Shown here in pieces: positions 15,281 through 28,194 of a stretch of DNA of 46,645 nt. The DNA is from Thiotrichaceae bacterium. Lineage in GTDB: Bacteria > Pseudomonadota > Gammaproteobacteria > Thiotrichales > Thiotrichaceae. Below the pieces are notes generated by a model. That model did not search any database, was not told the DNA's origin, and was given only the letters and a program-made list of their open reading frames with translations. Location of the stretch: positions 1 through 46,645 of the forward strand of contig JALSJU010000101.1 in NCBI GenBank assembly GCA_026989145.1, given 5' to 3'. The position numbers and the translations under genes were made by a program. Position 1 is the stretch's first letter. Each line of letters begins with the position of its first letter.

Positions 15281-15415
15281 GTCGCGCTAGCTTAATTAGG
15301 GCGGCGATCTAGTAAGGCATCAACTTTGTTGTTGTAGATTTTTCGGGGAAATAACTATTCTCAAAATATACGCCTAGAATGTGATGTCTTGTAAGTTAGT
15401 GGAATTTTATGTGAC

Positions 15416-15584
15416 TTAAGGAAACCCTGAGCAAGTCCAATTATTATACGAATTCACGCTAAATACGCCGATATTTTCCACGAAGATCGGCGCAATAGAA
15501 TAACTATTACGTCGTCACTTTATGAAAAATAGCGACAGATTTTTCTGCGCTAAATTCTAATCGACTTAATCAGGTTCTCCTTAA
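15416..15584 (+). repeat. TTAA-ended inverted-repeat element, family A, copy 2
   Basis: This 169-base element begins TTAAGGAAACCCTGAGCAAGTCC and ends GACTTAATCAGGTTCTCCTTAA; the ends are inverted repeats. It carries the internal hairpin CGCCGATATTTTCCACGAAG/ATCGGCG and the segment CTATTACG...TATGAAAAATAG. It is nearly identical to copy A3 over most of its length and contains no gene. Confidence 0.8.
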
Positions 15585-25820: not shown

Positions 25821-26435
25821 TTATGGGGTTTGATCTTTCCTTGCGGAAATTAGTCGGCTCTCTGTCGCAATAAAGTCTAACGGGATATCCCAACTTTCAG
25901 CATGCAAAGAAGCGACTTCCTGAAAGTCATAGGCAATACCCATTAATAATGGGCCGCCGGCATTTTTATTTAGAAATGCAAAAGTTCGGTCATAAAAGCC
26001 CCCGCCCATGCCTAAACGGTTGCCCTTTTTATCAAAGCCTAATAAGGGCATTAACACTAAATCTAACGTATTTCCTGCCAGCAGATCATTTTCATTGTAA
26101 ATAGGCTCAGGGATTGAAAAGCGATTCGCCTCAAATTTACTTTGGTTTGTCGTGCGCGCAAATAATAAAGGCTCATCTTCTGCTTGAAGAATAGGTAGTG
26201 AGAATTGCTTGTTAGCGCTAGAAGGGGTGTTTAGTTGGGTGAGTGGAAGAAGATCAACTTCACCTTGAACAGGGTAGTACAAGGCAATATGGTAAGCTGA
26301 TGTGTATGCAGATGATTGTTCAATATTTAATACAATGCTTTTAGACTTTTCCTTTTGCAGTGTGCTTGAAAGCTTGCTACGTTGCTGGCGAAGTATTTTT
26401 CGTAATGCATCTTTGTCGTTTGAAGGTGGTTTCAT
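25821..26435 (-). CDS. ygfA: 5-formyltetrahydrofolate cyclo-ligase
   Basis: This 204-residue cytosolic enzyme converts 5-formyl-THF to 5,10-methenyl-THF using ATP. The N-terminal KDALRKILRQQRSKL helix, the phosphate/folate region YYPVQGEVDLLPL and the signature NRLGMGGGFYDR (~135-146) are in place. The start ATG (26435-26433) shares its first base with the end of a TTAA repeat element, so the element supplies the whole leader, and only a weak AGG lies 10 bases upstream. In many relatives 6S RNA precedes this gene; I see none here. Confidence 0.93.
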   Translation of the reverse strand: MKPPSNDKDALRKILRQQRSKLSSTLQKEKSKSIVLNIEQSSAYTSAYHIALYYPVQGEVDLLPLTQLNTPSSANKQFSLPILQAEDEPLLFARTTNQSKFEANRFSIPEPIYNENDLLAGNTLDLVLMPLLGFDKKGNRLGMGGGFYDRTFAFLNKNAGGPLLMGIAYDFQEVASLHAESWDIPLDFIATESRLISARKDQTP

Positions 26436-26615
26436 TAAGGAAAGCCTGATTAAGTCCTATAAAATTCTGTAAGTCTATAGGGCAGTATATCCTAGGCGTA
26501 TTTTGAAATGAATGCTTATTGCCTTCATGAGAAATACAACAACGGAGATGCTGCCCTAGAGCCTTGCCCTTTGGCGTTGCCAGAATTTATTGGGACTTGA
26601 TCAGGCTTTCCTTAA
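26435..26615. repeat. TTAA-ended inverted-repeat element with 35-base arms (type B)
   Basis: The left arm begins TTAAGGAAAGCCTGATTAAG and runs to 26469; the right arm, 26581-26615, ends TGATCAGGCTTTCCTTAA. The two 35-base arms match at all but a few positions. The outer ~20 bases are shared with family A, but the ~110-base core (AGGGCAGTATATCCTAGGCG...) is unrelated. No gene lies inside. The right TTAA also begins a further short partial arm (TTAAGGAAAGCCTTATTGA), as if elements were stacked. Confidence 0.8.
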
Positions 26616-26652
26616 GGAAAGCCTTATTGATTAGCCTGCTAAATTATGGCAA

Positions 26653-26682
26653 TAAAAAAGCCACCTGAAAAGGTGGCTTGAA
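26653..26682 (-). terminator. Terminator of mltD
   Basis: On the minus strand: AAGCCACCT-TTTC-AGGTGGCTTTTTT, 10 bases past the mltD stop. Confidence 0.92.
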
Positions 26683-26691
26683 GATAGGATG

Positions 26692-28194
26692 CTAAGAGTA
26701 TCGTTTGCTTTTTCTTAAAGCAACTTTGAGTCGTTTCCCAGGCCAGATTTTATTACTACGCAACTTGTTTAAACGTTTTAAACGTTTAACCGAGATACCA
26801 TGTCTTTTCGCAATTTGGTAAAGGTTGTCACCGAGTCGCACTTTTACATAGCGGTAACGTCTCTTCTTAGAGTAGCGCTTTTTATAGCGTCTTTTCTTTC
26901 TGGGTTGGTAAGCGTATTTGTTGTGTACATCACGGGCCGCAGGCAAACGGTGAATAATTTGTGTTAAACGCCCTGCATAACGTCGTGGTAAAAGTATTTC
27001 ATTCGATGTGCGTGGTGTAGTGATACCGTGTAAAAATGCAGAGTTGAGTATCGTTAAGGTATCTGAAGGTAGGCCTGCAGTCGCGGCTGCCTTTCTTAAA
27101 TTGACTGCTTTGTTAACGCGAATACTGGTTAATGCGACTTGATTTGGGATGCCGCGTAACTGAACACCATAAGCTCTTGGGTTGCGGAATATTTGTTTGA
27201 AAGCTAGCAGACGTGGTACATATTGTTTGGTTTCCCGAGGGAGGTTCAAGCTCCAATAATCAGTACGCATACCACGACGTCTGTTATTGGCAATTTCACG
27301 TGCCACACGGTATTCGCCACAATTATAAGCGGCGAGTGAAAGTAACCAATCCCCTCTGAATTGACGGTTTAATGTTTGTAAGTAGGAGAGGGCAGCTTTA
27401 GTTGCTTTAAGAGGGTCCAAGCGAGCATCATAACTGCGTGTACGGTGTAGGCCAAAACGGCGACCTGTCGCAGGAATAAACTGCCACATTCCTGCGGCTC
27501 CTGCATGAGAATATGCTGCGTTACGGTAAGCACTTTCTACGAAGGGAAGTAATGCAAGTTCTGTTGGCATATTACGGCGGTTGATCTCATTCACAACCAT
27601 GTATAAAAAGTCAGATGAGCGATTAGCTAATTGTTGGATTCTTGCTGGGTTTCTTGAAAACTCTCGTGTAAAACGTTGTACCAATGGTTGGTAGTTATAA
27701 TCCCTAATTCTAAAGCCTTGGTAAATGCGACCCCATACATTGTTATGTGTCTGTTGCGGGCGGTATGGTCGCCTTGCTTGTGGAGTATGGTAACTTGGAC
27801 GGGCGTTATTAACATGTCTAGCTTGAGCAAGTTGACGTTGCCTACGTTGATTTTGTTGTTGTACAGCTAATCTATTAAGGTGGGCTTTTCGGCGAGCGGC
27901 ATTTTCTTTTAGTATTTGTAAGCGTCTAAGGGCATAGGGATCAGAATGTCTAGTTTGTCTGATTCTTTGTAGTTGTGTGGTTGGAGCTTGCTTTAGAATA
28001 CTCGCGAGCTTAGTTGTTCTGGCTTGTGGTGCGCGATAAACGGGTTGGGTTGTAGTGAGGCCGAGTTTAGCAGCAGCATCACGTAAGTCATCATTGGCTG
28101 GCTGAGCAAGCACAGGAGTATTGAAAAAGCTGGCGCAAAAAACGAGTGTGGTAACAAACGAAAGTGTTACCTTTGGCGGTATTTTATCAGTCAT
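26692..28194 (-). CDS. mltD: Membrane-bound lytic murein transglycosylase D with one LysM
   Basis: This 500-residue exported enzyme cleaves peptidoglycan glycan strands. A signal peptide covers ~1-30 (FVTTLVFCASFFNTPVLAQ). Residues ~75-160 are a very Arg/Gln/Asn-rich linker. The SLT domain (~165-330) has the catalytic Glu near 218 in LLPFVESAYRNAAYSHAGAA and the GMWQFIPATGRRFGL motif. A single LysM module ends the protein (YVKVRLGDNLYQIAKRHGIS). E. coli MltD has two LysM modules and a lipobox, which I do not see here. The protein is extremely basic throughout. It is divergent from the methyltransferase gene, as in E. coli. Confidence 0.92.
   Translation of the reverse strand: MTDKIPPKVTLSFVTTLVFCASFFNTPVLAQPANDDLRDAAAKLGLTTTQPVYRAPQARTTKLASILKQAPTTQLQRIRQTRHSDPYALRRLQILKENAARRKAHLNRLAVQQQNQRRQRQLAQARHVNNARPSYHTPQARRPYRPQQTHNNVWGRIYQGFRIRDYNYQPLVQRFTREFSRNPARIQQLANRSSDFLYMVVNEINRRNMPTELALLPFVESAYRNAAYSHAGAAGMWQFIPATGRRFGLHRTRSYDARLDPLKATKAALSYLQTLNRQFRGDWLLSLAAYNCGEYRVAREIANNRRRGMRTDYWSLNLPRETKQYVPRLLAFKQIFRNPRAYGVQLRGIPNQVALTSIRVNKAVNLRKAAATAGLPSDTLTILNSAFLHGITTPRTSNEILLPRRYAGRLTQIIHRLPAARDVHNKYAYQPRKKRRYKKRYSKKRRYRYVKVRLGDNLYQIAKRHGISVKRLKRLNKLRSNKIWPGKRLKVALRKSKRYS

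Follow-up and report, generated by a model that had tools for sequence, protein, structure and literature searches.

A putative IS5-group MITE beside ygfA in a Thiotrichaceae bacterium with a truncated copy of a predicted twin-hairpin core that recurs on different transposon ends in Gammaproteobacteria

Introduction

MITEs are usually viewed as decayed transposons whose middles are disposable. REPIN/BIME repeats are inverted pairs of REP hairpins, and they are not known to have terminal inverted repeats or a target duplication. ERIC/IRU-like elements are palindromic MITEs that are intergenic and present in many copies. The element described here, which lies beside ygfA in a Thiotrichaceae genome, can be compared with each of these. 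IS5-group insertion sequences (NF033581, PF01609 + PF05598) and their MITEs are like it in their ends and in a 4-base, YTAR-like duplication, and the IS5-mobilized MITEs also in the absence of coding capacity. It differs from that group in that no relation of its core to the IS gene has been noticed and in that its twin-hairpin module is found on several end types. As in REPIN/BIME, two inverted hairpins form one repeated intergenic unit; however, the units here are approximately 100 bases long and sit inside terminal inverted repeats with target duplications, neither of which REPIN/BIME are known to have. By description, the element is likened to ERIC/IRU-like MITEs as an intergenic, palindromic, multi-copy repeat, and it is set apart from them by a core that is separable from the ends.

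The IS5 target is given as YTAR (PMC10359306). For the large sulfur bacterium Ca. Thiomargarita nelsonii, another report describes numerous MITEs of palindromic form, including a hupL MITE with 10-bp direct repeats and a dsrA MITE with TATAG (PMC4853749); on that description, these repeats set them apart from the present element.

Results

The window, by which we mean the whole 46,645-nucleotide stretch analyzed, is contig C101 of a 2.63-Mb draft genome in 133 contigs (Table 1). Read inward from TTAA, the arms of the element are identical at 31 of 35 bases, and TTAA is present on both sides, in agreement with a first-pass annotation that had described 35-base arms and a right TTAA. That annotation also held that the element shares its ends with family A while having a different core. 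This was borne out: counted with TTAA, the outer 20 bases agree with the family A arms, of which five were compared, at 15, 17, 18, 18, and 19 of 20 positions, and the cores differ. The left end does abut the ygfA start codon, the A of the ATG being the last TTAA base on the minus strand (26435). The interval first proposed, 26435–26630, has the correct start, but its end lies 15 bases past the right TTAA and takes in the partial arm. The suggestion that this partial arm reflects stacked insertions agrees with its 18/23 match and with copies elsewhere that stack on a common TTAA. Elsewhere in the window, a third family A copy, diverged and with weaker arms, lies at 698–901, and a decayed hairpin unit directly adjoins the family A element at 15416.

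Table 1. Features of the window in and around the element beside ygfA, with family A elements
Feature	Position	Strand	Remarks
Short-form element	26439..26611	+	173 bp, internally deleted; no ORF >=80 aa inside
Left TTAA of target duplication	26435..26438	.	first T on + strand pairs with the A of the ygfA ATG
Right TTAA of target duplication	26612..26615	.	
Left terminal inverted repeat	26439..26469	+	35 bases when counted from TTAA
Right terminal inverted repeat	26581..26611	-	
First hairpin unit H of core	26468..26568	+	covariance model, 97.9 bits, E 6.2e-25
TTTGG at deletion junction	26570..26574	.	long form has ~106 more bases here (most of inverted second unit)
Remnant of another arm, stacked on right TTAA	26616..26634	+	18/23 match, TTAA included
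ygfA, 5-formyltetrahydrofolate cyclo-ligase, PF01812	25821..26435	-	
mltD-like gene (SLT + LysM)	26692..28194	-	
Terminator-like hairpin of mltD	26658..26679	-	upstream of element in ygfA direction
Family A element, TTAA to TTAA	37501..37677	+	
Family A element, TTAA to TTAA	15416..15584	+	
Second, decayed hairpin unit H	15303..15401	-	42.8 bits, E 1.6e-9

The genome was searched with the arms and with the whole element, where the first-pass annotation had proposed the arms and the core separately, and both searches revealed a multi-copy repeat. With up to three mismatches, the arm pattern has 124 matches (both strands summed), compared with one for a reversed-pattern control, and the whole element recurs at other places with identities of up to 97%; together, these results exclude chance. 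Close copies of the core come in two forms, a long one of 265–287 bases and a short one of 179–181 bases that is without approximately 106 bases between two TTTGG repeats. The junction of the short form is at the same place in five copies (C101, C72, C123 twice, and C54), some with later point changes. A single deletion derivative has therefore probably spread; judging from these sequences, the short form probably arose by one deletion and transposed independently afterwards.

The flanks also point to movement. Matching flanks other than TTAA are found as TTTA/TTTA (C123:37412 and L008), TAAA/TAAA (L273, L299, L301, and L302), and TTAT/TTAT (L271 and L274); unequal flanking 4-mers occur in L010 (TTTA/TTAA) and in L013 and L019 (TAAA/TTAA). 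As target duplications vary between copies yet agree on both sides, the element transposes. The alternative that TTAA belongs to the inverted repeat was rejected, since other copies have TTTA, TAAA, or TTAT on both sides. An end-TTAA-end junction pattern (up to three mismatches) gave 10 forward and 10 reverse matches in this genome and 30 and 29 in the same-genus genome G009, counts that are largely of the same sites because the pattern reads almost identically on the opposite strand; its reversed control gave 0 matches in all 7 genomes. G009 (loci L142–L149) contains 319 arm matches. One of its loci, L145, carries triple head-to-tail copies with TTAA in common, and its contig C70, considered as an autonomous element on the basis of arm spacing, in fact holds two MITEs around other genes. 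Elements of 58–66 bases that are nearly arms alone were seen in L286, L287, and L147. Under a crude ORF rule, no frame runs across 35 of 36 copies. At L005, L006, and L011, TTAA overlaps the end of the neighboring frame (right gap -3), apparently its stop codon, so that target choice may spare genes.

A likely partner was found in relatives. In a Thiotrichaceae MAG (G031, WFWY01000154.1), L151:94-1266 is an IS5-family element with a 321-aa transposase that matches NF033581 at 325.9 bits (cutoff 140). Its ends, GGAAGCCCTGATTAAGTC and GGAAATCCTGATTAAGTC, are those of our element, and TTAA lies beside both. In the same-genus genome G004, an IS5 element with an internal deletion (L152:1403-1940) retains both ends and a 159-aa N-terminal piece of the transposase; it is an intermediate between IS and MITE and illustrates how a short form can arise. 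Of 80 related IS loci from other genomes, 34 were examined; many of these have GGAA-CTGA ends, and in some a 4-base duplication (TTAG, CTTA, or TTTA, for example) agrees on both sides. No intact cognate transposase was found in the 133-contig draft assembly of the genome itself, where PF01609 is represented by an IS4-like gene (our naming) without these ends and by a contig-end fragment, and where the sole result of a family-wide protein search was a stretch of a 139-aa frame with 42% identity. Among the loci collected for study, the search for autonomous elements with other end types yielded two spans, in L147 only; a transposase was identified for GGAA ends alone.

The element thus has the attributes of an IS5-group MITE, namely terminal inverted repeats (31/35), a 4-base target duplication, and no internal ORF of at least 80 aa, together with ends common to an autonomous IS5 element that is present in the relative (L151) and was not found in its own assembly. 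It is best classified as an IS5-group MITE, ordinary in kind. The earlier expectation that one transposase mobilizes several non-autonomous elements is supported by our finding that several such elements have the ends of one IS5-family element. Inspection by eye brought out no resemblance between the core and the IS5 gene, so a simple origin by deletion from the IS is not supported so far.

The full core begins and ends with a terminal inverted repeat; between these lie two hairpin units of approximately 100 bases, the second one inverted, on either side of a small CCC-GGG hairpin. When the second hairpin (H2) is compared with the reverse complement of the first (H1), up to 73 of 89 aligned positions agree, which makes the core a pair of inverted units flanking the CCC-GGG hairpin. 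For the same reason, namely that H2 is an inverted relative of H1, a kissing loop between complementary hairpin tips was rejected as independent evidence. Long copies are predicted to fold over their whole length (L272, -129.6 kcal/mol, z -15.7). Covariation was assessed in alignment A1, which holds 34 copies from five genomes, out of 38 long copies extracted (L273, L293, L310, and L015 were excluded), and in A3, which holds 25 cores picked for diversity (L325, L328, L339, and L340 were excluded); A2 has 28 rows after dropping rows identical over its stretch, and A4 comprises 23 units chosen among H1 and H2 of A3. Double changes occur in 45 of 86 pairs in A1 and in 54 of 69 in A3. Compensatory cells number 317 in A1 against 99.6 +/- 9.4 after shuffling, and 383 in A3 against 110.4 +/- 8.6 (at most 60 with partners slid); 0 of 500 shuffles reach the observed value in either case, a figure that is not a probability because the shuffles ignore the relatedness of the copies. 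Stems change in compensation, and the loop motifs AGGC and AAC are nearly invariant. At gathering score, Rfam matches in the window were two tRNAs only, and at E 10 nine loci with the element gave chance-level matches only. The core in the window is not arbitrary filler, a point missed by the first-pass annotation; it is a shortened copy of a structured module that is widespread.

A common core was found on several sets of ends that are unrelated to one another, namely between GGAAnnCCTGATTAAGTCC, GGAAnCTCTGAAtAACCTAG, and GGGYAC-TCTATTAATTAGG arms, and also between CTAG-flanked TACTCCA, TACATCAAC, TACTCTTTCAAGG, and other arms. The end types were compared over 16 core spans entered by hand; in a motif-based look at 15 loci, the motif in several fell on the wrong place or on none. 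Two loci of this genome, L015 and L018, have one end of the GGAAnnCCTGATTAAGTCC type and the other of the GGAAnCTCTGAAtAACCTAG type. Where the 4-base flanks of core-bearing elements are clear, they are YTAR or nearly so. The motifs and predicted fold of the core are conserved in many gammaproteobacteria, and the terminal repeats vary. Within the family, a model of the first hairpin (R1) had matches in 19 of 63 genomes, belonging to 3 of 8 genera. The covariance model built for the unit (R2) matched 98 of 369 Gammaproteobacteria genomes, including this one, and 77 of 272 genera, often with at least 11 candidates per matching genome. As a negative control, R2 had 0 matches at E <= 0.001 in 77 IS loci (348 kb); in 26 other loci, it had one, in G009.

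In four plasmids, of Pseudomonas aeruginosa PA83, Azotobacter chroococcum (two), and Halomonas sp. PA16-9, a copy spans 80% or more of the query, and the PLSDB gene table, which is incomplete, places no feature beneath any of the four. On a conjugative P. aeruginosa plasmid, L358:3843-4112 is a twin-hairpin element without annotation and with GGTCTGTTGACG ends. Searches by blastn with two family members per collection returned no match among plasmids or phages; the exact core pattern found 0 stretches in the genome-contig collection, and a pattern run on viral contigs found 0. Our literature search, which lay outside most subscription papers, found no description of this core, and the module is unnamed in the sources searched.

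Discussion

We consider it very probable that the locus holds an IS5-group MITE moved in trans, a deletion derivative whose structured core has served successive transposases. An IS5-group transposase acting in trans would have attached to the GGAAnnCCTGATTAAG ends and inserted the element at the ygfA start codon, into a TTAA. In the window copy, a deletion between the TTTGG repeats would have removed the second of the inverted pair of hairpin units, and the short form was then probably mobile on its own after this single deletion. Over a longer history, one structured passenger may have served successive transposases with 4-base YTAR-like targets, its ends being changed and its core kept. The distinctive aspect is this core, a conserved and widespread twin-hairpin module with changeable ends. 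The middle is here the conserved part and the ends are variable, with matches in 77 of the 272 genera sampled. Two questions thereby become testable. One is whether small transposons can exchange one transposase for another through replacement of their ends; the other is whether a structured element present in many copies has a function of its own.

Two accounts of how the fold is kept were weighed. The core may function as a structured RNA, or as folded single-stranded DNA, for which the ends are a vehicle, with selection on the sense-strand fold of each unit; we hold this tentatively. The near-invariant loops on covarying stems favor it, as does the balance of wobble pairs. In counts that exclude one unit-2 pair per alignment (in A3, U-G in all 25 rows), G-U against A-C in A3 was 35:11 in unit 1 and 7:15 in unit 2 (Fisher p 0.001). 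This opposite bias hints at a constraint on each unit to fold as a single strand in its own sense orientation. However, the unit-2 bias of A3 is not significant by itself (p 0.13), and A1, the set of closer copies, shows a weak bias that falls short of significance and does not reverse in unit 2 (14:8 and 6:4). Across 40 model-aligned units, G-U outnumbers A-C by 89 to 18, although these counts come from a model that may favor G-U. Against function stands the loss of one unit from the window copy, and the module has no known transcript or promoter.

Hairpins are easily corrected by template switching, and a fold could be kept without function if one arm of a palindrome were corrected from the other, which yields compensatory changes. 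The two-fold symmetry of the element and the predominance of Watson–Crick pairs (1021 of 1188 cells) fit this explanation, to which we give slightly less credence than to selection on the fold. Such correction is possible for stems, less readily for conserved loops, and the unpaired loop motifs are conserved across genera; nor does correction alone predict an opposite G-U bias between units. If selection does maintain the fold, the hairpin unit could represent a structured module of a new class, RNA or single-stranded DNA, that has spread among Gammaproteobacteria as inverted twins and persists by switching transposon ends, a proposal that we put forward with less than even confidence.

At ygfA itself, the insertion is lineage-specific. 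The relative G004 has the same gene order and terminator with 20–30 bases instead of the element, and model R2 (E <= 1) had no match in the ygfA loci of 18 relatives (L113–L130). A role as ancestral regulatory leader of ygfA would suit the element's place between mltD and this gene, as well as the fold predicted for it in a transcript, but it was rejected as extremely improbable given these absences and the near-identical copies at other loci. The first-pass annotation had looked to a relative lacking the insertion, which G004 supplies, and had named as contrary evidence the same ygfA leader in distant genera, which was not seen in G004 or the 18 loci. Its view of the effect on the gene fared less well. 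A poor ribosome-binding site had been attributed to the insertion; by eye, however, the bases before the ATG are GGCTTTCCTTA both with the element and with the flanks joined, because the flank itself is an arm remnant, so the insertion left the immediate ribosome-binding context as before. The syntenic relative L113 likewise has no clear site before ygfA by eye. The native leader, said to be replaced, is instead displaced, with the mltD terminator and the spacer downstream of it intact on the far side. A promoter scan gave one sigma-70-like match, upstream of the element and at chance level (shuffles averaged 0.9). The element as a transcript has a predicted fold of -75 kcal/mol (z -9.8), and, if ygfA is transcribed from upstream of the element, its leader would gain a strongly folding stretch.
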